IMG/VR virus record: IMGVR_UViG_3300022839_000654
Location: 1-41,860 of that record
From: a virus
Strand: one strand, 5' to 3'
Length of the DNA stretch: 41,860 nt
Part shown: piece by piece, positions 1,447 through 38,430 of the stretch
How the letters are laid out: every line of letters starts with the position of its first letter
Numbering within the stretch: position 1 is the stretch's first letter
Notes under the pieces: model-generated
Database searches by the model: none
Seen by the model: only the letters and a program-made list of their open reading frames with translations
What the model was told of the DNA's origin: nothing
Position numbers and translations under genes: made by a program

Positions 1447-1450
1447 CCTG

Positions 1451-1480
1451 TTGACATACTATAGCTGTCAGTGTTACAAT
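1451..1480 (+). promoter_or_regulatory. Sigma70-type promoter for the clpA-like gene
   Basis: TTGACA (1451-1456), 18-nt spacer, TACAAT (1475-1480). The -35 sits in a small hairpin (TGACA 1452-1456 / TGTCA 1466-1470) nested in an outer TGTAAC/GTTACA pairing. A ribosome-binding site AAGGA at 1497-1501 precedes the ATG at 1514. Confidence 0.65.
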
Positions 1481-1513
1481 TAACTATAAAGAAACTAAGG
1501 AATAATTCAAAAT

Positions 1514-11477: not shown

Positions 11478-14147
11478 TTGAGTTACGTAGACGCTTTCTT
11501 TGACAGAGAGCAGGATTTAATTCGCGTCGTTGAACGAAACGAAAAAGGCGAAAGACATTTTAAAGAATATCCTGCTCGTCATATATTTTATTACCCAGAC
11601 CCAAAAGGCAAGTTCCTTTCAATCAAGGGCGAACCTTTAACCAGAGTTTCAAGCAGAAGCGTTAAAGAGCATCGCAAAGAGCTTTCAATATACAGTGGAA
11701 AGAAACTGTATGAAAGCGATATCAACCCAATCTATCGTTGTCTAGAAGACAACTATCTTAATCAAGATGCCCCTAAGCTAAATGTAGCATGGTTCGACAT
11801 TGAGGTAGACTTTGATCCAGAACGTGGCTATGCTTCGCCGGAAGATGCATTCATGCCAATTACTGCTATCGCTGTCTACCTACAATGGATGGAGACAATG
11901 GTGTGTTTAGCAATTCCTCCTAAGACACTAAGTATGGAAGAAGCTAAGAAGCAGGTTGAAGAATTTCCTAACACTATACTGTTTGATAACGAAGCAGACA
12001 TGTTAGACACATTCTTAGATCTAATTCAAGACTCGGACGTACTAAGTGGATGGAACAGTGAAGGCTTCGATATTCCCTACACGGTAAATCGTGTTACTAA
12101 AGTTCTAAGCAAAGAGGACACACGTAGATTCTGCTTGTGGAATCAATTCCCCAAGAAGCGTGAATACGAAAAGTACGGTAAGGCTGCTACTACATATGAC
12201 TTGATTGGGCGTGTACACTTAGACAGTTTAAATTTGTATCGTAAGTACACGTATGAAGAACGGCATACCTATCGACTAGACGCTATTGGCGAGCAGGAAA
12301 TTGGCGAGAACAAAACTGTCTACGAAGGTACATTAGATCAGTTGTATAACAATGACTTTAAACGCTTCATTGAATATAACAGACAGGATACTATGCTTCT
12401 TGAGAAACTTGACAAGAAGTTAAAGTTTATGGATCTTGCCAATACACTAGCACATGAGTGTACTGTGTTGTTGCAGACTACTATGGGCGCAGTAGCTGTT
12501 ACTGAACAGGCCATTATTAACGAAGCTCACAAGCGTGGATTTATTGTTCCTAATCGCATCAGCCGTGACACTGAAGTAGATACACAGGCTGCTGGTGCAT
12601 ATGTTGCGTTTCCTAAGAAAGGTATTCACGAGTGGATTGGCTCTCTGGATATTAACTCACTATATCCTTCAGCAATTCGTGCATTGAACATGGGCCCAGA
12701 AACAATTGTTGGACAATTGCGTCAAGATGGTACTAAAGACTTTATTGCCGCAGAGATGGCAAAAGGCCGTAGCTTTGCCGGTGCGTGGGAAGGTATCTTT
12801 GGTAGCTTAGAATACACTGCTGTTATGGATCGCAACGTTGGTCGAGAAATAACTATTGACTGGGAAGACGGCGGTCACGATACCCTAAGTGCTGCACAGG
12901 TATATGATTTGATCTTTGACAGCAATCAGCCTTGGATGCTGAGTGCTAACGGCACTATCTTTACTTACGAAAAAGAAGGTATTATTCCTGGATTGCTAAA
13001 GCGTTGGTATGCTGAACGTAAAGAAATGCAGGCTAAACTTAAAAACTGTATTAAGGCAGGTAATAAGATTGAAGAAGAATACTGGGACAAGCGTCAATTA
13101 GTCAAGAAGATTAACTTGAACAGTTTGTACGGTGCTATTCTTAACGCTGGCTGTAGATTCTTTGACAACCGTATTGGACAATCAACTACACTTACAGGCC
13201 GTGCCATTGCACAACACATGGCTGGTAAAGTAAATGAAATTATCACCGGCGAGTTTAATCACACAGGTAAGGCAATTATCTATGGTGATACTGACTCCTG
13301 TTACTTCTCAGCATATGCCACGCTGAGAAAAGAGATTGACAAGGGCACACTGCCTTGGACAAGAGAGAGTGTAATTGAACTTTACGATACTATAGGAGAA
13401 ACAGTAAATGACACATTCCCCAAGTTTATGCAAGACGCATTCCACGTACCTAAATCACGAGGAGAGGTCATTAAAGCAGGTCGCGAGATTGTTGCTTCCA
13501 AAGGACTATTCATTACTAAAAAACGATACGCAGTCCTCTACTATGACAAAGAAGGCAAGCGAGCAGACAAGGACGGACAGGGTGGTAAGATCAAGGCCAT
13601 GGGTCTTGACCTTAAGCGTTCAGATACCCCGGTTATTATCCAAGAGTTTTTAAGTCAAGTATTAACTCGAGTGCTAAATGGTGATGGACAAGAATCTATT
13701 CTAGAGTATATCACTGAATTCCGCACTGAGTTTAAACTACGTCCAGGTTGGGAGAAAGGTTCGCCTAAACGTGCCAATAAGATCTCAGAGTATCGTGACA
13801 AAGAAAAGAAAGCAGGTAAGACTACAATGCCCGGACATGTCCGTGCTAGTTTGAATTGGAACACTTTAAAGCGTATGATGGATGACAAATATTCAGTAGC
13901 TATTACAGACGGTGCTAAAGTTATTGTGTGTAAGGTTAAAGATAATCCAATGGGCTATACTAGTGTTGCATATCCTGTAGATGAATTGCGTTTGCCGCAG
14001 TGGTTTAAAGACTTACCATTTAATGATGCAGAAATGGAAAATGCTGTCATTGATGAAAAGTTGGAGAACTTAATCGGTGTACTAGACTGGGACCTCAGTT
14101 CAACCCGCAGTGATAATAATTTTAACAAACTATTTGACTTTGAGTAA
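11478..14147 (+). CDS. 43: Family B DNA polymerase (T4 gp43-like)
   Basis: 889 residues, close to T4 gp43 (898). The 3'-5' exonuclease has Exo I FDIE (Asp107, Glu109), Exo II GWNSEGFDIPY and Exo III YNRQDTMLL. The polymerase has motif A SLDINSLYPS (Asp391), motif B KKINLNSLYGAI and motif C YGDTDS (Asp604, Asp606). All catalytic residues are present, so it should be an active proofreading replicase. The start is a TTG at 11478 behind an AGGAG site (11467-11471); no in-frame ATG lies nearby and the N-terminus SYVDAFFDRE matches the family. T4 gp43 represses its own translation; a weak AT stem (AAATT/AATTT) around the ribosome-binding site here is not convincing as an operator. Confidence 0.97.
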   Translation: MSYVDAFFDREQDLIRVVERNEKGERHFKEYPARHIFYYPDPKGKFLSIKGEPLTRVSSRSVKEHRKELSIYSGKKLYESDINPIYRCLEDNYLNQDAPKLNVAWFDIEVDFDPERGYASPEDAFMPITAIAVYLQWMETMVCLAIPPKTLSMEEAKKQVEEFPNTILFDNEADMLDTFLDLIQDSDVLSGWNSEGFDIPYTVNRVTKVLSKEDTRRFCLWNQFPKKREYEKYGKAATTYDLIGRVHLDSLNLYRKYTYEERHTYRLDAIGEQEIGENKTVYEGTLDQLYNNDFKRFIEYNRQDTMLLEKLDKKLKFMDLANTLAHECTVLLQTTMGAVAVTEQAIINEAHKRGFIVPNRISRDTEVDTQAAGAYVAFPKKGIHEWIGSLDINSLYPSAIRALNMGPETIVGQLRQDGTKDFIAAEMAKGRSFAGAWEGIFGSLEYTAVMDRNVGREITIDWEDGGHDTLSAAQVYDLIFDSNQPWMLSANGTIFTYEKEGIIPGLLKRWYAERKEMQAKLKNCIKAGNKIEEEYWDKRQLVKKINLNSLYGAILNAGCRFFDNRIGQSTTLTGRAIAQHMAGKVNEIITGEFNHTGKAIIYGDTDSCYFSAYATLRKEIDKGTLPWTRESVIELYDTIGETVNDTFPKFMQDAFHVPKSRGEVIKAGREIVASKGLFITKKRYAVLYYDKEGKRADKDGQGGKIKAMGLDLKRSDTPVIIQEFLSQVLTRVLNGDGQESILEYITEFRTEFKLRPGWEKGSPKRANKISEYRDKEKKAGKTTMPGHVRASLNWNTLKRMMDDKYSVAITDGAKVIVCKVKDNPMGYTSVAYPVDELRLPQWFKDLPFNDAEMENAVIDEKLENLIGVLDWDLSSTRSDNNFNKLFDFE

Positions 14148-14207: not shown

Positions 14208-14945
14208 ATGAAAGACATTTTACAAGACATCGTATCACACACCCAGAATCTAGGATTTTTAACTACAGTTAAGGTCACAGGTACAGAACGTGGTACAACT
14301 ATTAACTCTATGGCTGACGATCGTTCAGTTATCATGGAAGCTACTACTGCTAGCCCGCAACCAGATATGATTGGTGTGTTTGGCATGCCACAACTTAATA
14401 AACTGAAGTATTTGCTAGACGGTGCTGAGTACAAAGAAGATGCTAAAATTAGTATCACTACAGCAGAACGTAACGGAGAAACATTGCCAGTTGGTTTACA
14501 TTTTGAAAACAAAGATGGCGACTTTAAAAACGATTACCGTTTTATGAATTCAGAAATCATTAACGAGAAAATGAAGACTGTTAAGTTCCGCGGTGTTAAG
14601 TGGGATGTAGAGGTTGAACCTAGCGTTGCCGCAGTACAGCGTTTTAACTTCCAAGCTGGTGCTAATAATGAACATCCAACATTCTTGGCAAAAACAGATG
14701 GTAGCAATCTAAAGTTTATCTTTGGTGATGCTAGCACACACGGCGGTGAGTTTATCTTTGCACAAAACGTTGCAGGTAAATTGGATCGTGGTTGGACTTG
14801 GCCTATTGTGCCAATCTTGAGTATCCTTAAGATTGCGGATGTTAACAACACAAAGATGTCTTTGAGTAATGAAGGTGCTATCCAGATTACTTTAGACAGC
14901 GGTCTTGCTACTTACAAATATATCATTCCAGCACAAGCGGCCTAA
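14208..14945 (+). CDS. 45: Sliding clamp (T4 gp45-like)
   Basis: 245 residues, against 228 in T4. The fold pattern and position after the polymerase match phage clamps: an N-terminal KDILQDIVSHTQNLGF helix region, a middle GVFGMPQLNKLKYLL segment and a C-terminal second domain ending TYKYIIPAQ. The protein would trimerise round DNA, tether the polymerase and, in T4, also act as the mobile enhancer of late transcription. No clamp loader (gp44/62) is in the window. Confidence 0.85.
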   Translation: MKDILQDIVSHTQNLGFLTTVKVTGTERGTTINSMADDRSVIMEATTASPQPDMIGVFGMPQLNKLKYLLDGAEYKEDAKISITTAERNGETLPVGLHFENKDGDFKNDYRFMNSEIINEKMKTVKFRGVKWDVEVEPSVAAVQRFNFQAGANNEHPTFLAKTDGSNLKFIFGDASTHGGEFIFAQNVAGKLDRGWTWPIVPILSILKIADVNNTKMSLSNEGAIQITLDSGLATYKYIIPAQAA

Positions 14946-14947: not shown

Positions 14948-15316
14948 ATGATTAAGGGCTTACAAGGTTATAACGGTGTAACGGTAAATAGCGGCAACAC
15001 TGTCCTGCCGTATGTTGCCCCGAACGCTGCTAATCCAATGATGGGTATGCTGAGAATCAACGGCACTGATATAGAAGTGTTTAATGGCTCCAGTTGGCAA
15101 TACTTATCCACCAGCTATGCTACTGTAGGCCTTGATCAAGATATACTAGACATAGTACAATGGGTACGTAAGAAGCGTGACGAAGAATTAAAGTTGCATA
15201 GCTTGGCAAATGACAATAAGGCTGTTAAAATAGCATTAGACAATTTAGAACAGGCAAGACAACAATTAGATATAACAGTAAAATTATGGAGAGAATATGA
15301 GCAAACAACCAGTTGA
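14948..15316 (+). CDS. Hypothetical protein with a fibre-like N-terminus and coiled coil
   Basis: 122 residues. The first 60 (for example NGTDIEVFNGSSWQYL) look like the short beta module common in phage tail-fibre and structural proteins. Residues about 70-118 form a charged helix or coiled coil (KKRDEELKLHSLANDNK). It sits 2 nt after the clamp gene and overlaps dpdA by 20 nt, so it is part of that operon. Function unknown. Confidence 0.7.
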   Translation: MIKGLQGYNGVTVNSGNTVLPYVAPNAANPMMGMLRINGTDIEVFNGSSWQYLSTSYATVGLDQDILDIVQWVRKKRDEELKLHSLANDNKAVKIALDNLEQARQQLDITVKLWREYEQTTS

Positions 15317-16835
15317 TTTAACACCCCTACAGAAAGACTACGCAGTCTATTTGCCTGCGATTAGTAGTTTCTATTCTACCTACGTGGCAAAACAACGCAA
15401 GGGAGATTTTGTACCCAAAGATCGAATTCCAGCGGGTTTTGATCGAGGCATCGAAGGTATGAACTTCTTAAACCCAGAAGAAGGATACTTCTATTACAAG
15501 TACGGATTGTATTCAGCAGGCCATGCACAACTAGATCTAGTTAAGACTATGGATCATGACTCAATGATTCAGCAACGTGATCGCAACAAAACAATGATCT
15601 TGGGCGACTCCGGTGGTTACCAGATTGGTAAAGGTATCCTTAAGTTTGATTGGCTAGACTTTGAAGGCAAAAAAGCTAACAAGACTCGTGATGATATTCT
15701 TAACTGGCTTGAACTAACTGCTGATTGGTCAATGATGCTAGACGTTCCTACGTGGGCATGTGACCATATTCATAGTCCAAAGACAGGACTAAAGTCATTT
15801 GAAGACTGTCTAGATAAAACTCGTCACAATAACAAGTACTTCTTGGACAATCGTTTAGGTGCTACTAAGTTCCTAAACGTTCTACAAGGTAGTAACTGGG
15901 ATACTGCCGAAGCGTGGTACGAAGGTGTTAAAGAGTTTAGCGATAAGAAAGTTTGGGGCGATAAAGCCGCTGAAGGGTGGGCAATGGGCGGTGCGAATAT
16001 GTGTAAGATGCATATTGCACTACGCCGCATAATCACTATGCGGTTTGACGGTATGCTAGAAGGCAAGGATTGGATGCACTTCTTGGGCACTGCACAATTA
16101 GATTGGTCGTGCTATTTGACCAGTATTCAACGTCAGGTCCGTAAACATATTAATCCTAACTTTACAATTAGCTTTGATTGTGCGTCGCCGTTTATTGCAA
16201 CTGCACACGGACTTGTTTACACTAACAGTCAGCATACAGCCAAGCGGTGGAGTGTTATTATGGACAAAGCTCCAGATAATAAAGCACTTGCGTCGCGCCC
16301 GGACATTCCGTTTCCATTCGAAAGCGAGATTGGTCGCAGACTAAATGTTTCAGATATCTGTCACTACAAGCCAGGAATGCTAAACAAGATTGGCAAAGAA
16401 GGCAAGACTTCGTGGGACAGCTTTGGTTATGCACTGATGATGGGTCATAATGTTTATCAACATATTGTTGCTGTACAACGTGCTAACAACTTGGCAGATA
16501 TTGAACAGGCTAAGATCCGACCAGACTGGAGACTGTGGAAGAAGAACAAAGATCGTGACATGAGTGACGAGTATAGTGATTGGGTTCCCCGTAACATTCT
16601 GTACTTTGATCGTTTTGTTGAAGAGCTGTTTGGCTGTCCAGACAAAGAATCCGCATTTGCTATGATTGCTGACGCAGAGACTAGAGGCTTTATGCAGAAT
16701 TTGGAAGGCTCACGCTTGCGTGGTGGCGTTACGAATATCTCAAACGATCTGTTCTATGAAGAAGGCAGTGAAGACAAGGATTCGTGGAACGATGATCGCG
16801 AAGATGGCGAGTTGGATAAACTGGTAGCAGAATAA
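15297..16835 (+). CDS. dpdA: DpdA-like DNA transglycosylase (TGT superfamily)
   Basis: 512 residues. Motifs of tRNA-guanine transglycosylase are present in order: LGDSGGYQ (Asp104, as in DSGGFQ), MLDVP (Asp149), LNVLQGSN (194-200), MGGAN (230-234) and SFDCASP (Asp294, the position of the nucleophilic Asp). HN in MMGHNVYQHI also fits. I see no CxCxxC zinc site of bacterial TGT. The low similarity to tRNA enzymes and linkage to folE, queE and a queD-like gene point to DpdA, which exchanges guanine in DNA for a 7-deazaguanine such as preQ0. In phages this protects DNA against host restriction. A tRNA-acting TGT is the alternative but less likely. Confidence 0.85.
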   Translation: MSKQPVDLTPLQKDYAVYLPAISSFYSTYVAKQRKGDFVPKDRIPAGFDRGIEGMNFLNPEEGYFYYKYGLYSAGHAQLDLVKTMDHDSMIQQRDRNKTMILGDSGGYQIGKGILKFDWLDFEGKKANKTRDDILNWLELTADWSMMLDVPTWACDHIHSPKTGLKSFEDCLDKTRHNNKYFLDNRLGATKFLNVLQGSNWDTAEAWYEGVKEFSDKKVWGDKAAEGWAMGGANMCKMHIALRRIITMRFDGMLEGKDWMHFLGTAQLDWSCYLTSIQRQVRKHINPNFTISFDCASPFIATAHGLVYTNSQHTAKRWSVIMDKAPDNKALASRPDIPFPFESEIGRRLNVSDICHYKPGMLNKIGKEGKTSWDSFGYALMMGHNVYQHIVAVQRANNLADIEQAKIRPDWRLWKKNKDRDMSDEYSDWVPRNILYFDRFVEELFGCPDKESAFAMIADAETRGFMQNLEGSRLRGGVTNISNDLFYEEGSEDKDSWNDDREDGELDKLVAE

Positions 16836-16837
16836 CA

Positions 16838-16866
16838 TTGCTAACTGAGCAATTTGATGCTATAAT
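16838..16866 (+). promoter_or_regulatory. Sigma70-type promoter after dpdA
   Basis: TTGCTA (16838-16843), 17-nt spacer, TATAAT (16861-16866). The -35 forms the 5' arm of a hairpin ATTGCT (16837-16842) / AGCAAT (16848-16853) that may also terminate dpdA transcription. The ATG at 16873 lies 6 nt after the -10 box, again implying a leaderless message. Confidence 0.6.
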
Positions 16867-16872
16867 TAATGT

Positions 16873-17076
16873 ATGAATACACTATCACTTAATCGTAAAC
16901 AAATTGAAAAGCTCACCGAGATAGTGACCCATTTTAAAGAAATAGAATGGTTCACTATCAGGGTAGATCGTAGTAGTGGCATAGGGGAAGGGATTACTAT
17001 TGAATTTAATCTCTTTAATGACAATGATAAAGATGTCGATACTAAAATTGACATCACTGATTTGAGTACATGGTAA
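16873..17076 (+). CDS. Small hypothetical protein
   Basis: A 67-residue acidic protein (NLFNDNDKDVDTKIDITDL) with an amphipathic N-terminal helix. It sits directly behind a promoter and its stop overlaps the next ATG (TAATG). No family recognised. Confidence 0.65.
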   Translation: MNTLSLNRKQIEKLTEIVTHFKEIEWFTIRVDRSSGIGEGITIEFNLFNDNDKDVDTKIDITDLSTW

Positions 17077-17516
17077 TGGGTGAAGATCAAGGACTTAACA
17101 AGTACGAAACATTTGCCAAGAATATGGAAGAACAGTTTCCCAAGATGTTTGCAGGTGATTACGGCGGCTTTTCTGTAGGCGCTGGCTGGTATCTACTGTT
17201 AGAAACACTCTGTTCTAATATCCAGCATCACCTCAACTGGAAGAATAAAACAGCGGAAGTTGTTCCACAAGTAACTGTGGCACAGATTAAAGAAAAGTTT
17301 GGTGGACTGCGTTTCTACTACGATGGCGGCGATGACTACATTCGCGGTCTAGTTAGCATGGCAGAATCGTGGGCAGACATTACATGCGAAGAGTGTGGTA
17401 GTGTTGGAAAGAGACGAGGCGACGGATGGATACGTACATTGTGTGATGTCCATGAAGCAGAACTGCAAGAACGTAAACGCACACAAGAAATGAAAGATGG
17501 AGGTTTTGAAGAATGA
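17076..17516 (+). CDS. Zinc-ribbon-like phage protein
   Basis: 146 residues from the ATG at 17076, which overlaps the previous stop (TAATG); an in-frame ATG at 17070 is possible. A motif GWYLLLETLC is followed by IKEKFGGLRFYY, and then a Cys pair CEECG and a C-x-x-H (LCDVH), a probable zinc site. This EKFG-LRFY-Cys arrangement occurs in many small phage and prophage proteins of unknown function. The C-terminus is charged. It overlaps the next gene by 4 nt (ATGA). Confidence 0.75.
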   Translation: MGEDQGLNKYETFAKNMEEQFPKMFAGDYGGFSVGAGWYLLLETLCSNIQHHLNWKNKTAEVVPQVTVAQIKEKFGGLRFYYDGGDDYIRGLVSMAESWADITCEECGSVGKRRGDGWIRTLCDVHEAELQERKRTQEMKDGGFEE

Positions 17517-18025
17517 AACGTGATTACGCAGACGGCGTTGCTGACGATATTGTATTCTTTATCGGTAATGAAGTAGAACATACTCCTGCATACGGGTTAA
17601 AAACTTTGTTTGTTACAGGCGTACAACCTGTAGGAAATATTGCATCGAATTTACAGGGCTGTGAGCATATCTTCTTTGGCGCTAATCATAGTTTTAACCC
17701 TAAAGACTACGAAGAGCATAAGTGTTGGGAAGAGATGATCTTTTACTTTTTGAAGAAAGAGTATCTGTGCAGTCTAGATATTCCAATGAGCCAGGTAGAA
17801 GAGTTTCATGAAAGCGGTTACTGCGAATACAATAACTTTATTCCGCAGATTCGTGTGCCTATTCCATATATCAAGTTATGGAATTATAATACAATGCTAA
17901 AGATTGATGATAAAGATTTTAAAGCAACCAATCCCGGCGTATGGTCTCATAGTCTACATACGCTAATGGATCGTAGTAAGTTTGCAGACTGGTCACAATA
18001 CAAAAACGATGAGATTGTAAAGTAA
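17513..18025 (+). CDS. Conserved phage protein of unknown function
   Basis: 170 residues. It opens with VADDIVFFIGNEVEHTPAYG and a Rossmann-like strand-turn pattern (LKTLFVTGVQPVGNI) with CEHIFFGANHSF. The C-terminal half ends in a conserved-looking IDDKDFKATNPGVWSHSLH. No catalytic signature that I can name. It starts at an ATGA overlap within the same transcription unit as its neighbours. Confidence 0.75.
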   Translation: MKRDYADGVADDIVFFIGNEVEHTPAYGLKTLFVTGVQPVGNIASNLQGCEHIFFGANHSFNPKDYEEHKCWEEMIFYFLKKEYLCSLDIPMSQVEEFHESGYCEYNNFIPQIRVPIPYIKLWNYNTMLKIDDKDFKATNPGVWSHSLHTLMDRSKFADWSQYKNDEIVK

Positions 18026-18093
18026 TGGGACCACATGGATCAGCATACACAACTCCTCTAGTAAAGTATCAACCCGTAATTCACGTGGAATAG
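18025..18093 (+). other. Possible 22-residue ORF, perhaps frameshifted
   Basis: An ATG in a TAATG overlap opens a 22-codon frame (MGPHGSAYTTPLVKYQPVIH plus VE) that stops at 18091-18093. A compositionally similar Gly/Thr/Arg stretch (RGIGTSGCRVQGTRTAVNK) continues in the -1 frame into the next gene without a stop. This may be one small gene broken by a frameshift, or chance. Weak evidence. Confidence 0.3.
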
Positions 18094-18099
18094 GCACTA

Positions 18100-18130
18100 G
18101 CGGTTGCCGAGTTCAAGGCACACGCACCGC
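18100..18130 (+). other. GC-rich RNA hairpin in the 18094-18155 gap
   Basis: GCGGT (18100-18104) pairs with ACCGC (18126-18130) and TGCC (18105-18108) with GGCA (18117-18120), leaving an 8-nt loop GAGTTCAA and a 5-nt bulge CACGC. It stands out in AT-rich surroundings. There is no T run, so it is not a clear terminator. It does not fit a tRNA. Confidence 0.4.
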
Positions 18131-18155
18131 AGTTAATAAAGTAAAGAGCATAAAA

Positions 18156-18425
18156 ATGACATTGAAACAACGATTCCGCAACTGGGTCCTTAATCAAAAT
18201 GACGACGCGATTGAGTACGAGAAGCCCACTAGAGAATCAGAAGAGCGTTTTCATAGCGATGGCATGAAACTACAGGTCTACAAAGGTAGTGGCGGCTTTG
18301 TAGTAGAAGTTCGTAACTATGATCGTAAACGTGATGAGGACAATAATAAAATGTACATCATTCACGATGACAAAGACCTCGGTGAGGAACTTGGTAAAAT
18401 TATAACTATGGAAAGTATGAGATGA
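18156..18425 (+). CDS. Small conserved phage protein
   Basis: 89 residues, basic N-terminus (MTLKQRFRNWVLNQ) and a compact charged body with FHSDGMKLQVYKGSGGFVVE and HDDKDLGEELGKIIT. It may be a small alpha/beta fold. An AAAGAG site precedes the ATG. The stop overlaps the next start (ATGA). Function unknown. Confidence 0.7.
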   Translation: MTLKQRFRNWVLNQNDDAIEYEKPTRESEERFHSDGMKLQVYKGSGGFVVEVRNYDRKRDEDNNKMYIIHDDKDLGEELGKIITMESMR

Positions 18426-18670
18426 ACCAAAAAATTAAACGTGCATTAGACAAGGCAACTGAAAATATTTTAGGTGTCAATGTTACCAATCAAGAGAATT
18501 TTGCTAGACTATTGCTAGAAGAATGTGTTACAATTATTGATAATATGCAATTTACTAAAGAAGGTCCAACAGAGGCAGCACAGTATCAACGTACACTTTG
18601 TGGATCTACAATCAAAGAGCATTTCGGGTTGCAAGGCAAAGGACCTATATCATCAAAGTACATTCTATGA
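18422..18670 (+). CDS. Small conserved phage protein
   Basis: 82 residues. A helix ENFARLLLEECVTIIDN and a C-terminal IKEHFGL recall small helical phage proteins often found singly in T4-like and other phages. Start and stop both lie in ATGA overlaps. Function unknown. Confidence 0.7.
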   Translation: MNQKIKRALDKATENILGVNVTNQENFARLLLEECVTIIDNMQFTKEGPTEAAQYQRTLCGSTIKEHFGLQGKGPISSKYIL

Positions 18671-19047
18671 TTATTAAACAAGACATTCGCCCAGCAACTA
18701 TGACTTTTATTAAAGTTCGTACAGAATTTGAAGGGTTTCACTATTACCCAAACGCTGGATCAATTGATCCACGTATCCAGTTTCTTGAAAATGAACATCG
18801 ACACATGTTCAAAGTTGAAGTAAAGATTAGTGTTACACACTTAGACCGTGAATTAGAGTTCTTCCTTGTTAAGTGGGCATTGGCAGAATTTATTAAAGAC
18901 GGTAAAATGAATCACAAGAGTTGCGAAATGATTGCAACAGACATCTTGGAAAAGCATTTGATTCCAGCATATGGATCAAATCGATACTACGAAATTGTAG
19001 TGTCAGAAGACGGTGAATCCGATGGTATCATCGAATACAAACCATAA
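18667..19047 (+). CDS. QueD-like (6-pyruvoyl-tetrahydropterin synthase family) protein
   Basis: 126 residues from the ATG at 18667, which overlaps the previous stop (ATGA); a GTG/ATG further upstream would intrude on the previous gene. Three histidines fit the zinc site of the T-fold family: His25 (EGFHYYP) and His44/His46 (ENEHRHMF). SCEMIATDI resembles the PTSENLA region and VSEDGESDGIIEY the C-terminal Glu strand. QueD converts dihydroneopterin triphosphate to carboxy-tetrahydropterin, between FolE and QueE in preQ0 synthesis. The catalytic Cys four residues before HxH is not present (Leu40), so it is a divergent member; function is supported mainly by linkage. Confidence 0.6.
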   Translation: MIIKQDIRPATMTFIKVRTEFEGFHYYPNAGSIDPRIQFLENEHRHMFKVEVKISVTHLDRELEFFLVKWALAEFIKDGKMNHKSCEMIATDILEKHLIPAYGSNRYYEIVVSEDGESDGIIEYKP

Positions 19048-19077
19048 TAATATTATTAAGTACTAAGGAAAGCTAAC

Positions 19078-19335
19078 ATGGCTAAGAATTACCGCGACGT
19101 TGCCTATTTTAAAAATCGCCCCGACATTGTTCGGATCTTTGATGACTTGGAAGCGTTTCAAGACTTTTGTCGTATGGAACTTCGAGAGTTTGACCCTGCG
19201 GAAATTTACCGCAAAGAAGGTGCTCCTAACTATGGTGCGTTCCTAGCAAGCAAGCGACCGCGCCGGCCTTACCTAGGCAAGAACCCACGTTGGGATAATA
19301 ACGGAAAGCGCAATGAGCAGAATTTTTCTCGTTGA
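19078..19335 (+). CDS. Small basic hypothetical protein
   Basis: 85 residues. An acidic and aromatic first half (DDLEAFQDFCRMELREFDPA) precedes a basic tail (KRPRRPYLGKNPRW). An AAGGAAAGC site lies before the ATG. It overlaps the glycosyltransferase gene by 23 nt. No family recognised. Confidence 0.7.
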   Translation: MAKNYRDVAYFKNRPDIVRIFDDLEAFQDFCRMELREFDPAEIYRKEGAPNYGAFLASKRPRRPYLGKNPRWDNNGKRNEQNFSR

Positions 19336-20386
19336 TTTAGAAGCAGTCGAGACAAGGTACACTGGACAATGGCAGTCCCATGTGCCTGCCTTACTACGAG
19401 AGAAAGGACACAATGTTCAAATTATATCAGGCCCTGCGGATATTCCTAGTGCAACTACTCCTGGAGCGTTTCTCAACTTTGGCGGAACTAATATATACAA
19501 GGCTAGTCAAGTTGAGCAGCTGGGCCGTTTATTTTGTAATGGAGCCGTTCGCCCAGGTGATCATTTTATATTTACTGATGCTTGGCACCCTGGTATCATC
19601 AATCTCAAGTACATGAGCGAATTACTGGGTATTCCAGTAACTACACATGGACTATGGCATGCTGGCAGTTATGACCCACAAGACTTTTTAGGACGTCTTG
19701 TTGGTAATAAGCCTTGGGTTAGACACGCTGAGAAAAGTTTCTTTCATGCGTTCGATCATAACTATTTTGCTACGAATTTTCATATCGATATGTTTCGTAA
19801 CAATTTGTTAGAGGTTAACTTAGGTACAGTTTATAACTATAAAGTTTCTAAGAAGATTGTCCAGACTGGGTGGCCCATGGAGTATATGGAAGATACATTG
19901 ACTATGTATAAGAACATGCCAAAGCGTGACCTTATACTGTTCCCTCATCGCATAGCGCCAGAGAAACAAGTAGATATCTTTCGTGACTTAGCTATGCACT
20001 TGCCTCAGTATGAGTTTGTTGTATGTCAGGATCAACAGCTGACAAAGAATGAATACCACAATCTGCTAGGACAATCTAAGATTGTGTTTAGTGCAAACTT
20101 GCAAGAAACGTTAGGCATTAGTTGGTATGAAGGTGCATTAGTGGGCGCTGTTCCAATGATGCCAGATAGACTAAGCTACAGCGAAATGGCATTTGATACT
20201 TTCAAGTATCCGAGCGAATGGACTGATACTTGGGAGAACTATAATATCCATAGACAAGAAATCTGCTACAAGATTATACAGTACATGGAAAATTACGAAA
20301 AGTTTTTACCCAGCCTAAATAAACAAGTAGATGCATTAACTGAACATTATTTTAGTTGCAATAAACTATTAGAGATGCTAAAATAA
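19313..20386 (+). CDS. GT-B-like glycosyltransferase within the 7-deazaguanine gene cluster
   Basis: 357 residues. The C-terminal half has the GT4-like layout: LILFPHRIAPEKQVDIF, then FVVCQDQ, and the donor-binding stretch FSANLQETLGISWYEGALVG followed by AVPMMPDRLSYSE (compare E-x7-E retaining glycosyltransferases). The N-terminal half has a Rossmann-type start (RIFLVDLEAVETRY) and a GIPVTTHGLWHAGS segment. No membrane anchor is present, so it is probably cytoplasmic. Its place between the queD-like gene and folE suggests, without proof, that the acceptor is the modified base in DNA. It could equally act on a protein or glycan. Confidence 0.75.
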   Translation: MSRIFLVDLEAVETRYTGQWQSHVPALLREKGHNVQIISGPADIPSATTPGAFLNFGGTNIYKASQVEQLGRLFCNGAVRPGDHFIFTDAWHPGIINLKYMSELLGIPVTTHGLWHAGSYDPQDFLGRLVGNKPWVRHAEKSFFHAFDHNYFATNFHIDMFRNNLLEVNLGTVYNYKVSKKIVQTGWPMEYMEDTLTMYKNMPKRDLILFPHRIAPEKQVDIFRDLAMHLPQYEFVVCQDQQLTKNEYHNLLGQSKIVFSANLQETLGISWYEGALVGAVPMMPDRLSYSEMAFDTFKYPSEWTDTWENYNIHRQEICYKIIQYMENYEKFLPSLNKQVDALTEHYFSCNKLLEMLK

Positions 20387-20428
20387 AACTATACAGGCAA
20401 TCCACTGCTTAAACATCGGAGAAATATA

Positions 20429-21145
20429 TTGACACAATTGAATTATAGAGAAGAAGACGGAAGACCGCTAAGCCAGGTTATCCGCGACAAACTCAAACGC
20501 GATAACAAACGGTTTTGGGCAGGAGACAACATCAGCGAATACGTTAGCGATGTTGAAAAGGATACACTAATCACCGAAGCAGCAGAAGCATTTGAAGGTG
20601 TGCTAGATCGCTTGCTTATTGATCGAGAAACAGATCCAAATAGCAAAGGCACTGCAAAGCGGCTTGCTAAAATGTACTTTAATGAAATCATGACAGGCAG
20701 ATATGATCCAGCACCAGACGTAACAGCATTTCCAAACAATTCGGCAGACCGTTACGAAGGCATGCTCGTGGTTCGCAGTGAACTTCGTAGTATGTGTTCA
20801 CATCATCACCAACCCGTTACTGGGGTTGCTTATATTGGCATTATTGCGGCAGAAAAACTAATTGGTCTTAGCAAGTATACTCGCATTGCTCAGTGGTGCG
20901 CTCGCCGTGGCACCCTACAAGAGGAACTATGTAATGACATTGCTCGAGAAATTAGTAAAGCAACTGATTCAGAAAACGTAGGTGTATATTTAAGAATGAC
21001 TCATGGATGTTGTGAGAACCGAGGCATAATGGCACACGATAGTTCAACAACTACTTCAGTGCTTAAAGGTGCGTTTAATAAAGATCCAGGTACAAAGAAA
21101 GAGTTCTTTGATACATTGAGTCTCCAAGAATCCAATAAGCGATAA
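20429..21145 (+). CDS. folE: GTP cyclohydrolase I
   Basis: 238 residues, the usual FolE size. SMCSHHHQPVTGVAYIGI holds zinc ligands Cys123 and His126 and catalytic His125. LGLSK-like IGLSKYTRI and ARRGTLQE follow, then THGCCENRG with His192 and Cys194 as the second catalytic/zinc pair. It converts GTP to dihydroneopterin triphosphate, the first step of preQ0 (and folate) synthesis. The start is a TTG at 20429 with GGAG 7 nt upstream; no ATG fits. In this context the product most likely feeds the DNA 7-deazaguanine pathway with the QueD-like protein and QueE. Confidence 0.95.
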   Translation: MTQLNYREEDGRPLSQVIRDKLKRDNKRFWAGDNISEYVSDVEKDTLITEAAEAFEGVLDRLLIDRETDPNSKGTAKRLAKMYFNEIMTGRYDPAPDVTAFPNNSADRYEGMLVVRSELRSMCSHHHQPVTGVAYIGIIAAEKLIGLSKYTRIAQWCARRGTLQEELCNDIAREISKATDSENVGVYLRMTHGCCENRGIMAHDSSTTTSVLKGAFNKDPGTKKEFFDTLSLQESNKR

Positions 21146-21181
21146 GTGTATTGCTTCTTTAGTAAATATGGAGACACGTAA

Positions 21182-21658
21182 ATGAAATGGTTTCTCGATT
21201 TTTTAGATAGGCTGGGTCGTAAACGTATAATTATGGATCGAGTGAGCAACGAACCGTTGTTAACCCGTTATTATCTTTTTCTAAAAGATCGAAAGCATTT
21301 TCCGTTTAATGTGTTTCTACACAAGTTCCATAAAGGTGATCCAGATGATGTTCACGATCATCCATGGAGTTATTTTACTTTAATTTTAAAAGGTGGCTAT
21401 TATGAATGGATTCCAGAATTTAATCCAGATGGTACAAAAAGTTGCGAGATTCGTAAGTGGCGTGGACCCGGTCATTTTCGCGTGTCTAGCCCTACTAGTT
21501 ATCACCGCATTGAATTAAAAGAAGGAATAACTCCTTGGACATTGTTTATGCCAGGTCCCCACAAACGAGAATGGGGATTTCTAGTAAATGATGAATGGAT
21601 TCAAAATGAATATTATTTAAAAACTCGTAAAGAACAAAATGAACAAACTCATAATTAA
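21182..21658 (+). CDS. Cupin-fold protein
   Basis: 158 residues. Residues about 40-130 show a cupin pattern: NVFLHKFHKGDPDDVHDHPW with the metal-binding HDH, then TLILKGGYYEW, and a later His in SSPTSYHRIEL. The charged N-terminus (MKWFLDFLDRLGRKR) is amphipathic. Cupins of this type are often dioxygenases or sugar isomerases; the substrate cannot be told. A GGAG site is present at 21170-21173. It overlaps the phosphoribosyltransferase gene by 20 nt. Confidence 0.75.
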   Translation: MKWFLDFLDRLGRKRIIMDRVSNEPLLTRYYLFLKDRKHFPFNVFLHKFHKGDPDDVHDHPWSYFTLILKGGYYEWIPEFNPDGTKSCEIRKWRGPGHFRVSSPTSYHRIELKEGITPWTLFMPGPHKREWGFLVNDEWIQNEYYLKTRKEQNEQTHN

Positions 21659-22136
21659 TGACAGAAAATTTAAAGGTTTAGTTTCTACTATCTGTAGAGA
21701 AATTGCCGCAGATAATTGGAAGCCGGATTTCATTGTAGGACTTACAAGAGGCGGATTATTGCCTGCTGTAATGATCAGCCATTACTTAAACGTTCCCATG
21801 CAATCGTTAGATATCAGTTTGCGTGACGGCGGAGAATGTACTAGCAATCTAGGCATGGCTGAAGATGCGTTTTACGGAAAGAACATTCTTGTTGTTGACG
21901 ACATTAATGATCAAGGCAGTACACTAAACTGGCTGATGAATGATTGGCCAAGTGGCTGTTTTCCAGATGACACCAGTTGGCAACAGATCTGGAGTAACAA
22001 CGTAAGATTTGCTGTTGTTGTTGATAACTTATCTAGCCAATGCAGCGTAGGTATGAACTACTGTGGTATGGAAGTTAACAAAGCCGAAAACGATGTGTGG
22101 ATTGAATTTCCTTATGAAGAATGGTGGACAAAATGA
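21639..22136 (+). CDS. Purine-type phosphoribosyltransferase
   Basis: 165 residues. The PRPP-binding signature is clear: NILVVDDINDQGSTLNWL (hydrophobics, two Asp, then Gly-Ser-Thr). An upstream DFIVGLTRGGLLPAVMISH loop is typical of hypoxanthine/xanthine/guanine phosphoribosyltransferases. It would transfer a base to PRPP, or the reverse. Such enzymes are common in T4-like phages of aquatic bacteria. Base specificity is not readable by eye; recycling guanine released by DpdA is conceivable but speculative. Confidence 0.88.
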   Translation: MNKLIINDRKFKGLVSTICREIAADNWKPDFIVGLTRGGLLPAVMISHYLNVPMQSLDISLRDGGECTSNLGMAEDAFYGKNILVVDDINDQGSTLNWLMNDWPSGCFPDDTSWQQIWSNNVRFAVVVDNLSSQCSVGMNYCGMEVNKAENDVWIEFPYEEWWTK

Positions 22137-22375
22137 GTGTAATAACTAGGCACGATAACACCTGTACTGTTACTCAGGTTTCCAGTAAAAGAGAGATGGA
22201 GGCTGAAGTCATGCAGTGTAACGAGGGACGTAACCTTACTGTGGTTATGAACAAGAGTGTTAAACTATTGATGAATTGGAATGGTAGTAAGTATGAAGGT
22301 CGCATGGCGGGCATGGACTTTGAAAGCGCAGGTCCTAAGATTAGTAAGACTAGTACTAATTTAAGAGGCCGATGA
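22133..22375 (+). CDS. Small hypothetical protein
   Basis: 80 residues from the ATG at 22133, which overlaps the previous stop at ATGA; an in-frame upstream ATG at 22121 is less likely. It has a short beta pattern (RNLTVVMNKSVKLLMNWNG) and a C-terminus rich in Ser, Lys and Thr. Family not recognised. Confidence 0.65.
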   Translation: MSVITRHDNTCTVTQVSSKREMEAEVMQCNEGRNLTVVMNKSVKLLMNWNGSKYEGRMAGMDFESAGPKISKTSTNLRGR

Positions 22376-22566
22376 ATACTATACTCGTTCCTTGGGATAA
22401 TCAAAATAGTCATTGGTGGAATGAAACCTGCGCGATGGTTTTAGAACAGTTTGGGCTTCCTGGTGATAAGTACACATCCCATCCTACAGAAAATTCAATG
22501 TCGTTTGAGTTCAATAACGAACAAGACGCATTACTTTGTAAAATATTATTAAGTGATAGAATATGA
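22372..22566 (+). CDS. Small hypothetical protein
   Basis: 64 residues with ATGA overlaps at both ends. It contains PWDNQNSHWWNETCAMVLEQ and a C-terminal helix with FNNEQDALLCKILL, a pattern I associate with small conserved phage proteins. Function unknown. Confidence 0.65.
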   Translation: MNTILVPWDNQNSHWWNETCAMVLEQFGLPGDKYTSHPTENSMSFEFNNEQDALLCKILLSDRI

Positions 22567-22727
22567 CACACTGGACAGTTACCCTAAAAGAAGATCCCGA
22601 GAATGGCGATCTTATTATGCCAATACCGCAAGATCTGTTAGATATGCAAAATTGGAAAGAAGGAGACACATTAGAATGGCTAGATCAAGGCAACGGTTCT
22701 TGGCAATTACAGAAAAAGAGTGTATAA
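22563..22727 (+). CDS. 54-residue AbrB/SpoVT-like small protein
   Basis: A short gene: ATG 22563 in an ATGA overlap, stop TAA 22725-22727. It reads MTHWTVTLKEDPENGDLIMP, continues with IPQDLLDMQNWKEGDTLEW and ends with a SWQLQKKSV tail. The alternation (Trp, GD, IP.DLL, W.EGD.LEW) matches the swapped-hairpin AbrB-type fold found in small phage proteins that may bind DNA. The competing longer frame across the same DNA lacks this pattern. The stop codon overlaps the queE promoter -10. Confidence 0.7.
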   Translation: MTHWTVTLKEDPENGDLIMPIPQDLLDMQNWKEGDTLEWLDQGNGSWQLQKKSV

Positions 22728-22728
22728 T
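22700..22728 (+). promoter_or_regulatory. Sigma70-type promoter for queE
   Basis: TTGGCA (22700-22705), 17-nt spacer, TATAAT (22723-22728). The queE ATG at 22734 lies 5 nt after the -10 box and there is no Shine-Dalgarno sequence, so the product would be a leaderless message. Readthrough from the upstream operon is an alternative. Confidence 0.6.
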
Positions 22729-22733
22729 AAACT

Positions 22734-23579
22734 ATGAGTAAAATTAAAATCGCAGAGCTGTTTTACAGCATTCAAGGTGAAGGACGTTATATGGGCGTCC
22801 CTTCTGTATTTCTACGCACATTTGGTTGCAACTTTACGTGTAGCGGATTTGGCATGCCTAGAGGTGAACTAAGCAAGGAAGCTGAAGAAATTTCAGTAGT
22901 TGCTCATATGTTTGCAAAATACGAGGACTTGCCACTAGTTAGTACTGGCTGTGATAGCTACGCTAGCTGGATGCCAGAGTTCAAAACTCTTAGTCCGATG
23001 CTTACAAGCGAAGCAATTGTAGATCGTATTATGGAAATTCTCCCGCAGGATCATTGGAAGGACGAACACTTGGTTATTACAGGCGGCGAGCCGCTACTGG
23101 GCTGGCAACGTGCTTATCCGGATTTGCTTAACAACACCAAGATGCGTGACTTGAAAGAGATTACTTTTGAAACAAACGGTACTCAAAAACTGACTCCGGA
23201 GTTTAAAGGTTTCTTGGCTAAGTGGAATAGTGAAGTAGGTAAAGAACTTACATTCAGTGTAAGTGCTAAACTGCCATGCAGTGGTGAAAAGTGGGAAGAC
23301 GCTATTAAGCCAGAAGTTGTTTGTGAGTATGAAGAAGTTGGTACAGCATATTTGAAGTTTGTTATTGCTACAGAACAAGACTTTGCCGATGCCGAACGTG
23401 CAATTGCTGCATTCCGTGCAGCAGGGTTTAAAGGACATGTCTACTTAATGCCAGTCGGCGGTGTCGAAAGTGTATATGCTATGAACAATAAGAACGTAGC
23501 AGTGCTAGCTATGAAGAACGGTTTGCGATACAGTGACCGACTGCAAGTGCCGCTGTTTAAAAATGAGTGGGGTACATAA
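22734..23579 (+). CDS. queE: QueE: 7-carboxy-7-deazaguanine synthase, with split cysteine motif
   Basis: 281 residues of the radical SAM family. YSIQGEGRYMGVPSVFLRTF (11-30) is the QueE signature. Cluster ligands appear to be Cys32 and Cys36 (GCNFTC), but the third cysteine of CxxxCxxC is replaced by Phe39. The likely third ligand is Cys73 in TGCDSYASW, matching the CDTPYTW of ordinary QueE, so about 34 extra residues are inserted in the motif. GGEP (VITGGEPLLGW) and FETNGTQ follow. The reaction rearranges carboxy-tetrahydropterin to 7-carboxy-7-deazaguanine. Burkholderia QueE is known to have a different 14-residue insertion in this motif. The next gene starts in the TAATG stop overlap. Confidence 0.9.
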   Translation: MSKIKIAELFYSIQGEGRYMGVPSVFLRTFGCNFTCSGFGMPRGELSKEAEEISVVAHMFAKYEDLPLVSTGCDSYASWMPEFKTLSPMLTSEAIVDRIMEILPQDHWKDEHLVITGGEPLLGWQRAYPDLLNNTKMRDLKEITFETNGTQKLTPEFKGFLAKWNSEVGKELTFSVSAKLPCSGEKWEDAIKPEVVCEYEEVGTAYLKFVIATEQDFADAERAIAAFRAAGFKGHVYLMPVGGVESVYAMNNKNVAVLAMKNGLRYSDRLQVPLFKNEWGT

Positions 23580-27611: not shown

Positions 27612-27909
27612 TCGGCTGTTTAAACCTCCAAGACATCTGGTCAAAGAATGGCCAGAAGTCTTTGAGGATCTTTATATGAATACAGTGCCTATAGCTTATC
27701 TAGATGTAGTTCATCTAGAGTTTGCTAACGGCAGAGTATGGGAAATTAATATTAAAGAACAGACTATCAGTTTAGACCAAGATACAATTGCTACTAGATT
27801 AGTAGAAACGCTTCGAGAATATAAAGACGAGATTGTGAAAATAGAGTTTAAGGTTGATATAGTTAGACTTAAAACCGACATTAATAAATCAACTAAAACT
27901 ATTTTTTAA
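27604..27909 (+). CDS. Conserved phage protein at the end of the plus-strand block
   Basis: 101 residues. YMNTVPIAYLDVVHLEFANG is the most recognisable stretch. It overlaps the upstream gene by 8 nt and shares four bases (TTAA) of stop codons with the convergent minus-strand gene. Function unknown. Confidence 0.72.
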   Translation: MPSRLFKPPRHLVKEWPEVFEDLYMNTVPIAYLDVVHLEFANGRVWEINIKEQTISLDQDTIATRLVETLREYKDEIVKIEFKVDIVRLKTDINKSTKTIF

Positions 27910-28691
27910 GCAATATTTCTAGAAATTAATCGAGCCATTTTTTTAGATGATATTCTTCCAGGATGAGTTAGATCCCTTGCTTGATTATCAATTTCAATCC
28001 ATGCACTTTCTGTGTAGTGTGCTGTTTGGTCAAAAAAACTAGCAGAATAATACTTGCACCGATTTTTCCAAAGCTCCCTACTTGCAATAGATATGTAGCT
28101 AGCTTCTGTCATTGAATGATGGATATTAGTTGCATATTCTTTATACATAGCCGTATCGTCCCACGGACCAGCGTGATCTATCTTGTAATCTTTAAAAATA
28201 GTAAATCTATCTATATTTGTCCATAAGTTGACTACAGCATACGGAGTTGGAAAATACTTAGATAGTAATGTTGAGTTTATAAAAGAAAATTGCATAGAAG
28301 ATGCACTAGCGCCCATATTAACCACTGGTCTATTTAACATTTTAGACAATTGAGCAGTAACTGTTTCATCCTCAGCTAACCCTACTCCTAGTGTGCAAGA
28401 ACATCCAAATACTACAACAGCATTTTGCCAGTCAATTAAATGCCACTCGTCTGCTCTATAACCATTAAGATTGCAAGCGTATGTTACTTCTTTTGATCGA
28501 TAATGCCAGTCATCTGGCTGAGTTTGTAAATTTTTCTCAAACAGGGCAGGCGAATCATACGAAGTAAACTTATTTGAATAAATTTGGTGCCCGGGTGTTG
28601 CATCGTCTGCGTAATTTAGTATTAAGGATTTTAAAAATTTATAATCAGTTACATAATCAGGCAACGGGCTTGCATTTAGCAACTTATACAT
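27906..28691 (-). CDS. SGNH-hydrolase-like protein
   Basis: 261 residues from the ATG at 28691 (MYKLLNASPLP), 1 nt after the upstream stop; a longer form starting at 28748 is possible. Block I is FGCSCTLGVG (catalytic Ser), block II NMGASASS, a WTN for block III, and DLTHPG for block V (catalytic Asp and His). Members act as esterases, lipases or O-acetyltransferase-like enzymes. As the last gene of the sugar cassette it may remove or add acyl groups on glycans. No signal peptide is seen, so it acts in the cytoplasm or as part of the virion. Confidence 0.72.
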   Translation of the reverse strand: MYKLLNASPLPDYVTDYKFLKSLILNYADDATPGHQIYSNKFTSYDSPALFEKNLQTQPDDWHYRSKEVTYACNLNGYRADEWHLIDWQNAVVVFGCSCTLGVGLAEDETVTAQLSKMLNRPVVNMGASASSMQFSFINSTLLSKYFPTPYAVVNLWTNIDRFTIFKDYKIDHAGPWDDTAMYKEYATNIHHSMTEASYISIASRELWKNRCKYYSASFFDQTAHYTESAWIEIDNQARDLTHPGRISSKKMARLISRNIA

Positions 28692-28692
28692 A

Positions 28693-29721: not shown

Positions 29722-29723
29722 TA

Positions 29724-32847: not shown

Positions 32848-32854
32848 AGTGTCC

Positions 32855-38412: not shown

Positions 38413-38430
38413 TGTTTCTCCTAATTAACA

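Follow-up and report, generated by a model that had tools for sequence, protein, structure and literature searches.

What base does a phage build into its DNA when it encodes a guanine transglycosylase and early enzymes of 7-deazaguanine synthesis, has no detectable QueC, and keeps a glycosyltransferase gene in the same cluster? The virus record IMGVR_UViG_3300022839_000654 raises this question. The window analyzed here (41,860 bases) is the whole of that record. In it, the genes for a protein with the fold of the tRNA-guanine transglycosylases (TGT), a small T-fold protein, a glycosyltransferase (GT), FolE and QueE form a single run on the + strand, downstream of the genes for a family B DNA polymerase (PolB) and a clamp-like protein (Table 1). 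An earlier sequence-only reading had seen in this run a candidate 7-deazaguanine DNA hypermodification module of a T4-like phage. That core idea stands; the GT had been overlooked, and the end product is revised here.

We propose, at a probability of roughly 0.57, that the genes constitute a phage DNA-hypermodification module in which a 7-deazaguanine made independently of QueC is inserted by a DpdA-type enzyme and then glycosylated by the GT, the product being deduced. The tools used support what it is built on: the protein folds and family assignments, the retention of active-site residues, and the linkage and co-occurrence of the genes. A more specific version is tentative and falls somewhat short of even odds. 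It holds that the glycosylated base in the phage DNA is 7-carboxy-7-deazaguanine (CDG) or 7-deazaguanine, that the GT is a dedicated GT4 enzyme, and that the T-fold protein is the enzyme that replaces QueC.

The transglycosylase and the glycosyltransferase

The AlphaFold2 (AF2) model of the 512-aa protein, built from 32 aligned sequences, has a predicted local distance difference test score (pLDDT) of 86.8 and a predicted template modeling score (pTM) of 0.87. Foldseek comparison with the PDB gives nine matches at E ≤ 0.001, every one of them a TGT (from 4.1e-9 for 1q2r to 2e-4), and unrelated folds begin at 2.9e-3. Among the 50 VIA matches listed all are TGTs, the best having a Z of 18.9 and a root mean square deviation of 4.6 with 307 residues aligned. 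No Pfam, PHROG, NCBIfam or PADLOC model matches the protein, and sequence and profile searches of the PDB returned nothing significant. Because the sequence libraries give no match, the TGT assignment rests on the fold and on profile comparison. In hhalign the window clade aligns with a DpdA2-type profile (ACP17, X1, KVP40, pf16 and BUCT-ZZ01) at 84.8% and E 6.6e-6, and weakly with Escherichia coli Tgt alone (14%, E 0.002); the DpdA2-type family itself aligns with E. coli Tgt at 83% and 8.6e-6. The TGT-like protein with DpdA features that the sequence-only reading described is thus borne out both by the structure searches and by the profile comparison that it had suggested. A hidden Markov model (HMM) of the window family finds the ACP17 protein, which was outside its training set, at 1.7e-5 and KVP40.0122 at 0.18 (E-values for 10 sequences), and the DpdA2 HMM gives no match to the window protein at 1e-4. 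Judged by these comparisons, the 512-aa protein appears to represent a separate clade related to DpdA2 rather than a plain member of that family.

Three aspartates, D104, D149 and D294, are invariant in 32/32 aligned sequences of the clade. They align with the DSGG, FDE and ISYD motifs of DpdA2 in hhalign, and D294 also aligns, in the weak comparison at E 0.002, with the FDC-motif Asp in E. coli Tgt. We take the active-site aspartates of TGTs to serve as general acid/base and nucleophile. The tRNA-acting TGTs carry a structural zinc site composed of Cys-x-Cys-x2-Cys and a His. This cysteine cluster is absent from the 512-aa protein, which has in the region only C355 (present in 28/32). Placement of the model with tRNA-acting TGTs had been named as a refuting test, and it is not decisive: every one of the closest experimental structures is a tRNA TGT, yet among named phage subfamilies DpdA2 is the closest that was found.

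PA5oct gp168, Vibrio phage 2.275.O gp468 and Sinorhizobium phage Phosso 440 belong to the same clade. By tblastn it is present in 17 of 50,697 phage records, comprising 11 of the PA5oct group, Phosso, 2.275.O and four Xanthomonas or Erwinia phages, the last four at E 8e-3 only. The Xhv-12 protein is backed by the HMM (2.1e-9 for 10 sequences, outside the training set). The tblastn matches of ACP17 gp123 include nt-1, 6E35.1a, KVP40, pf16, X1 and BUCT-ZZ01. The TGT fold, the kept aspartates, the DpdA2 profile match and the presence of CDG-pathway neighbors in several unrelated phages make a DpdA-type DNA 7-deazaguanine module well supported, and we infer that DNA rather than tRNA is the substrate of the transglycosylase.

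The model of the GT has a pLDDT of 84.0 and a pTM of 0.82 (50 sequences). Foldseek returns 152 matches at E ≤ 0.001, with GT4 enzymes from 3.7e-10, and the 50 VIA matches listed have Z values of 20.4-23.8; BshA, glycogen and sucrose-phosphate synthases and PimB' are among the fold matches. R213, K218 and E273 are present in 50/50 aligned sequences, H116 in 48/50, and E265 in 48/50, the other two having Asp. The signature of GT4 enzymes is, we assume, an R...K donor site combined with an E-x7-E motif. From its model, the protein is predicted to be a GT4-type glycosyltransferase of the GT-B fold with its catalytic residues kept. PF00534 is found in four of six members of the family at E ≤ 10 (best 8e-12); the window GT itself has no match to a GT Pfam family, and sequence and profile searches of the PDB gave nothing significant for it. 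Resemblance of motifs had suggested queuosine mannosyltransferase (QTMAN) as a possible parent of the GT, an idea that is not claimed here; PF12038 (QTMAN_N) has no match in 6/6 members at E ≤ 10.

Relatives of the GT were found by tblastn in 20 phage records, in which PA5oct and ACP17 are each counted twice, so that at least two genomes are represented in duplicate. The product is named a glycosyl- or glycoside transferase in 5/20 records and is linked to DNA in 0/20. All 20 records also have a TGT/DpdA-type gene, which is of the window clade in 16 (four of them weak, E 8e-3) and of the DpdA2 type in four (ACP17 twice, X1 and BUCT-ZZ01). The GT gene directly adjoins the transglycosylase gene in PA5oct, ACP17 and X1 and is one gene apart from it in BUCT-ZZ01. 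In Phosso it is ~171 kb from the TGT gene, but adjoins the T-fold gene, near folE and queE; in Xhv-12 it is ~92 kb from the TGT gene, near a gene of the glutamine amidotransferase (GAT)-QueC type. Because of these two distances, linkage alone does not explain the pairing of GT and TGT, and the occurrence of the GT with two transglycosylase clades, both linked and unlinked, is what would be expected of a shared pathway. The GT and T-fold HMM scores of ACP17 and Phosso are inflated, their proteins having been seeds, and presence in these two phages rests on tblastn. BUCT-ZZ01 also encodes a second GT-like protein (447 aa, HMM 4.2e-5) directly ahead of its DpdA2 gene (L259:7007-8350).

In IMG/VR, the GT, T-fold and FolE genes are all present in 38/38 TGT-found loci that extend at least 6 kb downstream, and the TGT gene is present in 52/52 GT-found loci that extend at least 5.5 kb upstream; both counts are restricted to loci brought in by the other gene's query, and the first excludes the 120 of 158 TGT-found loci that have less than 6 kb downstream. 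Looser counts, which pool both queries and overlapping loci, are 86/86 and 167/167, and with loci of identical gene DNA collapsed they are 47/47 and 97/97. The loci are the best 80 of at least 384 per query and are mostly of one lineage with a fixed gene order, so these counts show linkage, not many independent events. The sole confirmed relative of the GT in genome_contigs is on a 4.6-kb contig (L258) of a metagenome-assembled genome titled Erysipelotrichaceae bacterium UBA6182; it is probably a phage contig binned along.

The T-fold protein and QueC

The T-fold protein, for which ATG 18667 and ATG 18700 are both possible start codons, belongs to a family that aligns with canonical phage QueD in hhalign at 86.6% and 4.4e-6, over 43 C-terminal columns only. 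It has a weak PDB match (2dj6, E 0.29), and four members of its family have no match to PF01242 at E ≤ 1. Residues H25, H44 and H46, three His of the zinc-binding type, and C86, E87 and E114 are conserved in 9/9 T-fold proteins. The catalytic Cys of QueD presumably stands four residues before the zinc His pair. Leu is found at this position in 9/9 T-fold proteins, and six canonical phage QueDs keep C28 and H32-G-Y in 6/6. The protein is therefore a paralog within the QueD/6-pyruvoyltetrahydropterin synthase superfamily, and not a canonical QueD, which qualifies the QueD-like label given to it in the sequence-only reading. A QueD-type gene matching PF01242 is present in addition in 6/6 complete records (PA5oct, 2.275.O, Phosso, Xhv-12, ACP17 and X1) and in 8/14 large contigs of relatives; a separate QueD in T-fold relatives points to a different function for the T-fold paralog. 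It was found in 21 records and is annotated as hypothetical in 21/21. In Vibrio phage Bakedbeans (L262:7212-8363) and Chryseobacterium phage MA9V-3 (L264:7428-8309) the T-fold domain makes up the C-terminal region of a larger protein.

QueC had not been seen by the sequence-only reading, and a search of the whole window record likewise gives 0 matches. The same is true of PA5oct, Phosso, ACP17, BUCT-ZZ01, RHph_I1_18, Ahp1, Bakedbeans and MA9V-3, all of which have the T-fold protein. Two further T-fold phages, X1 and D479, have partial QueC-family matches only, that of X1 below the cut-off and that of D479 (133-201, 6.4e-9) over it. Full-length QueC is present in 2.275.O, Xhv-12, KVP40 and pf16, and these four lack the T-fold protein in a search that did give positives; KVP40 has a second partial PF06508 match beside its full QueC. 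The T-fold protein and full-length QueC are never found together in the 14 named phages (10 with T-fold, four with QueC), a set not chosen blind, KVP40 having entered through the QueC search, pf16 through the DpdA2 search and five through the T-fold, and PA5oct being the only member of its group searched for QueC. This mutual exclusion makes the two look like alternatives after QueE, and the T-fold protein is, on its sequence and distribution, a candidate for the step that replaces QueC. The sequence-only reading had looked to the host, or to sequence beyond the window, for the QueC of the final step. This is now the less likely reading, because PA5oct, Phosso, ACP17 and BUCT-ZZ01 have 0 QueC matches and carry a second QueD-like protein that the four QueC-bearing phages lack.

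A family of short proteins is encoded near the T-fold gene in phages without the GT (L261:8417-9289, L263:8686-9543, L262:15090-16016, L260:10071-11339 and L264:8782-9576). Short TGT-like proteins of Ahp1, D479, Bakedbeans, RHph_I1_18 and MA9V-3 looked by eye like another type of DpdA; profile comparisons were weak (4.9% and 3.4%), and no such type is claimed.

Proposed pathway and competing explanations

In the pathway that we propose, FolE would carry out the first step, from GTP, and together with QueD and QueE would make CDG; the QueD gene would lie elsewhere, in the phage genome for many relatives and otherwise in the host. QueC-bearing phages would convert CDG to preQ0 and onward. Here the T-fold protein would replace QueC and would process or deliver the base without it, which makes CDG or 7-deazaguanine a more likely free base than preQ0. 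The DpdA-type transglycosylase would exchange guanine in phage DNA for the modified base by the TGT mechanism. After insertion the GT would add a sugar to the base, in the manner of T4 on hydroxymethylcytosine. Glycosylation of the 7-deazaguanine base in DNA is predicted, substrate and product both being drawn from association; the sugar might, for example, be esterified to the carboxylate of CDG or be linked at C7. A phosphoribosyltransferase (PRT) encoded in the cluster may salvage the guanine released by base exchange. The tools supply the protein families; it is the reading of them together that would supply the DNA substrate, the exact base, the action of the GT on that base, the kind of sugar, the atom to which it is attached, and a protective effect against restriction.

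Routes without QueC have reportedly been described before: Cui et al. (2023, Nucleic Acids Research) are said to have found dCDG and dDG in phages, with QueC-less routes, a CDG decarboxylase DpdL, the proteins DpdM and DpdN, and further decoration of the base. We know of no glycosylated derivative in that work. A glycosylated 7-deazaguanine would be, to our knowledge, the first sugar-decorated purine base in DNA. If the proposal is true, DNA glycosylation extends to a purine, two families (the T-fold protein and the GT) are given a function, and the missing QueC of these phages is explained; resistance to many G-reading restriction enzymes would also be predicted, as camouflage against bacterial defenses. 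The gene set is present in cultured phages, namely the PA5oct group, ACP17, X1, Phosso and BUCT-ZZ01. T4 glycosyltransferases have the GT-B fold. T4 glucosyl-hydroxymethylcytosine is alike in being a modified DNA base decorated by a phage glycosyltransferase (PMC13390438; statements from sources cited by PMC number refer to the extracts available), whereas in the window the acceptor is predicted to be a 7-deazaguanine and the GT is GT4-like. The phage DNA glycosylations described in the same source are on 5-hydroxymethyl- or 5-hydroxycytosine. Within the open-licence literature searched on this combination, and in the extracts of it available, no report of glycosylated 7-deazaguanine in DNA was found. 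A review predicts deazaguanine incorporation in jumbo phages, and the word stem "glycosyl" is absent from its available text (PMC13282480). The gene list of the mycobacteriophage PRodriguez has a dpdA-like transglycosylase together with a galactosyltransferase and a glucosaminyl deacetylase, and the available text draws no link between them (PMC10893344); no mycobacteriophage is among the GT matches in the phage records.

The known systems differ from the window in instructive ways. Like it, the DpdA2 systems of Schizotequatrovirus (nt-1, KVP40 and 6E351A) and of Pseudomonas phage pf16 belong to T4-like phages and encode a transglycosylase of the TGT fold next to folE and Que genes. Unlike it, KVP40 and pf16 have QueC and neither the T-fold paralog nor the GT; they also have a gene annotated as GTP cyclohydrolase that is taken for QueF by its likeness to the 2.275.O gene, the HMM having been seeded with them. 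ACP17 (Acidovorax), X1 (Xanthomonas) and BUCT-ZZ01 (Synechococcus) share with the window the GT, T-fold, FolE, QueE and DpdA genes in one run and the lack of a full-length QueC, but their transglycosylase is of the DpdA2 type, and ACP17 and BUCT-ZZ01 have a canonical QueD in the cluster. The Pseudomonas PA5oct group (Paride, Callisto, PAC2 and others; 11 records) has a transglycosylase of the window clade (45% identity), the GT as the next gene (42%), and T-fold, PRT, QueE and exonuclease genes in the same order. PA5oct itself differs in having no FolE in the fetched 31-kb stretch and two PF01242 genes elsewhere.

A competing explanation is an ordinary DpdA system, in which host QueC makes preQ0, this base or a simple derivative is inserted, and the GT has an unrelated role such as cell-surface or protein glycosylation. 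Known DpdA2 phages make dPreQ0 or dPreQ1: nt-1 DNA carries dPreQ0 (PMC6884629), at 0.1% of G (PMC12028318), and in 6E351A ~15% of dG is a 295-Da species taken as dPreQ1 (PMC12028318). Phage 2.275.O, of the same TGT clade as the window, has QueC and QueF beside its TGT gene, and a QueC-like protein occurs in a contig of one relative, with partial matches in others. Such a system would not account for the company of GT and TGT/DpdA genes in every one of the 20 GT records, unlinked cases included, for the position of the GT within or next to the Que genes of phages with either of two DpdA clades, or for the second QueD-like protein that takes the place of QueC in 10 named phages, and we consider it unlikely, though still to be reckoned with. 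Far less probable is action on tRNA, by which the TGT-like protein would make a queuosine-type modification during infection and the GT a glycosyl-queuosine-like tRNA. Its appeal is that the nearest solved folds are tRNA TGTs and that animals have glycosyl-queuosines (PMC12518689). It conflicts with the tie of DpdA2, the closest phage family found, to DNA modification, with the missing zinc cysteine cluster, with the absence of QTMAN_N matches from the six GT members, and with the lack of QueC and QueF matches in the complete GT-bearing genomes of PA5oct, Phosso and ACP17; QueF (PF14489) was found only in 2.275.O among eight records searched.

The GT might instead act on 5-hydroxymethyl-pyrimidines and merely share a genome with the deazaguanine module. 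Phage hydroxymethylases, as we understand it, belong to the thymidylate-synthase family (PF00303), and genes of this family are present in PA5oct, Phosso and Xhv-12. KVP40 and 2.275.O also have PF00303 genes and have no GT match, and ACP17, X1 and BUCT-ZZ01 have the GT and no PF00303 gene, which makes a 5-hydroxymethylpyrimidine acceptor unlikely there. T4-type phages do glycosylate in this way (PMC13390438); given also the place of the GT in or beside the Que cluster, we judge this explanation a shade more improbable than a tRNA substrate. The slightest chance is left to a pterin glycoside made by FolE, the T-fold protein and the GT, comparable to the tetrahydrobiopterin (BH4) glucoside of cyanobacteria and unrelated to DNA. 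BH4 glucosyltransferases are indeed among the fold matches of the GT (9v0w and 5zer), but many other GT4 enzymes match equally or better, every GT record has a TGT/DpdA gene, and the Xhv-12 GT occurs where there is no T-fold protein.

Several observations weigh against a QueC-independent, glycosylated base. No GT match was found in 66/70 DpdA2 records. Phage 2.275.O, one of the 17 TGT-clade records, has neither GT nor T-fold and has QueC and QueF, from which it follows that the TGT clade as such needs no glycosylation and is compatible with several end products. The GT of Ep032 and the Xhv phages is divergent (~25% identity) and in Xhv-12 sits with the GAT-QueC gene, without a T-fold protein. 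Five T-fold phages lack the GT, so T-fold and GT would be separate steps. Among the TGT loci excluded from the IMG/VR count, seven with 2-6 kb downstream are without the GT, two of them Phosso-like (L171 and L172, ~5.95 kb) and without it in their whole records too. No GT was seen in three IMG contigs, of which two are Phosso-like (44 and 16 kb) and one is 27 kb long; all are fragments, and the search in question gave zero matches. Partial PF06508 matches over the cut-off occur in contigs of 3/14 large relatives, one of which (L253, 210 aa, match 112-209) looks by eye like a real QueC-like protein, the other two being L254 and L255, and partial matches over it occur in 1/13 other records. Finally, a PF01242 QueD was not found in two contigs (186 and 126 kb) whose TGT is 100% identical to that of the window; there QueD would have to be supplied by the host or encoded on genome sequence beyond the contig.

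The partial PF06508 matches in the 1/13 records (L081 and L082) were examined as QueC and look by eye like other PP-loop proteins. In Xhv-12 the divergent GT gene directly follows genes for an "N-acetylglucosaminyl-malate deacetylase" and a glutaminase-QueC fusion (L170:7669-10903); this phage possibly makes a deazaguanine decorated with an amino sugar, and the deacetylase and galactosyltransferase genes listed for PRodriguez offer a parallel.

Locus and neighboring genes

Table 1. Features of the window, with the evidence for each assignment.
Feature	Coordinates	Strand	Evidence
Family B DNA polymerase, T4-type (landmark)	11478..14147	+	PF00136 7.2e-36; phrog_262 5.2e-198
Sliding-clamp-like gene (landmark), directly upstream of TGT gene	14208..14945	+	phrog_12062, unnamed
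TGT-fold, DpdA-type guanine transglycosylase, 512 aa	15297..16835	+	AF2 model, Foldseek, VIA, hhalign
170-aa protein	17513..18025	+	BLASTP to ACP17 gp122 8.1e-8
Small T-fold protein (phrog_17812)	18667..19047, inside open reading frame (ORF) 18598-19047	+	phrog_17812 5.7e-20
GT-B, GT4-type (retaining) glycosyltransferase, 357 aa	19313..20386	+	AF2 model, Foldseek, VIA
FolE, GTP cyclohydrolase I	20429..21145	+	PF01227 1.1e-37; phrog_2197 1.4e-44
Cupin, cysteine-dioxygenase-like	21182..21658	+	phrog_4786 1.2e-33
Purine-type phosphoribosyltransferase (PRT)	21639..22136	+	PF00156 3.7e-12
QueE, 7-carboxy-7-deazaguanine synthase-like radical SAM enzyme	22734..23579	+	phrog_2076 9.8e-51; TIGR03963 3.1e-16, below its cut-off

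The presence of FolE and QueE in the cluster and its position beside the polymerase and clamp, all noted in the sequence-only reading, agree with the matches in Table 1. The label "clamp" is based on position and on similarity to the genes that follow PolB in PA5oct and Vibrio 2.275.O. The gene order PolB, clamp, TGT, 170-aa protein, T-fold, 85-aa protein, GT, FolE, cupin, PRT and QueE is repeated, whole or partly, across the fetched IMG/VR loci, which indicates that the arrangement is more than chance. Promoter and terminator signals are not above those of shuffled sequences (32 vs 28.3 +/- 5.5 and 6 vs 7.9 +/- 3.0).

FolE matches PF01227 at 129.6 bits (cut-off 27) and the NCBIfam FolE models below their own cut-offs; the NCBIfam QueE models likewise match the window QueE below cut-off. 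This QueE has an insertion between the second and third cluster cysteines (C32-x3-C36-x36-C73-D-S), 36 residues instead of 2. The spacing C-x3-C-x34-42-CD is found in 108/111 QueE-like ORFs of the fetched loci, and the QueE proteins of ACP17 and Phosso have the canonical spacing. The corresponding clusters of PA5oct (tblastn 2.1e-8) and BUCT-ZZ01 (HMM 1.8e-28) contain PRT homologs; a PRT in the cluster of three lineages, that of the window included, fits recycling of displaced guanine. The 170-aa protein is conserved between the TGT and T-fold genes, and its ACP17 homolog is directly upstream of the DpdA2 gene. The cupin is conserved in the cluster of the window phage lineage and has no counterpart in the stretches fetched from PA5oct, ACP17, X1, BUCT-ZZ01 and Phosso.

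Elsewhere in the window, DnaJ and ClpB-like chaperone genes adjoin one another, and there is an endolysin of the LysM plus glycoside hydrolase family 19 (GH19) chitinase type (610-3883 and 8511-9527). A long cassette on the - strand occupies 27906-41789. It encodes, all on that strand, a 2-oxoglutarate (2OG)-Fe(II) oxygenase (31049-31837), a nucleotide-sugar epimerase resembling GDP-mannose dehydratase (31822-32877), a radical SAM protein (32855-34222) and a protein similar to tail fibres (40359-41789). The cassette might be a source of an unusual nucleotide sugar, or it might serve to decorate the virion.

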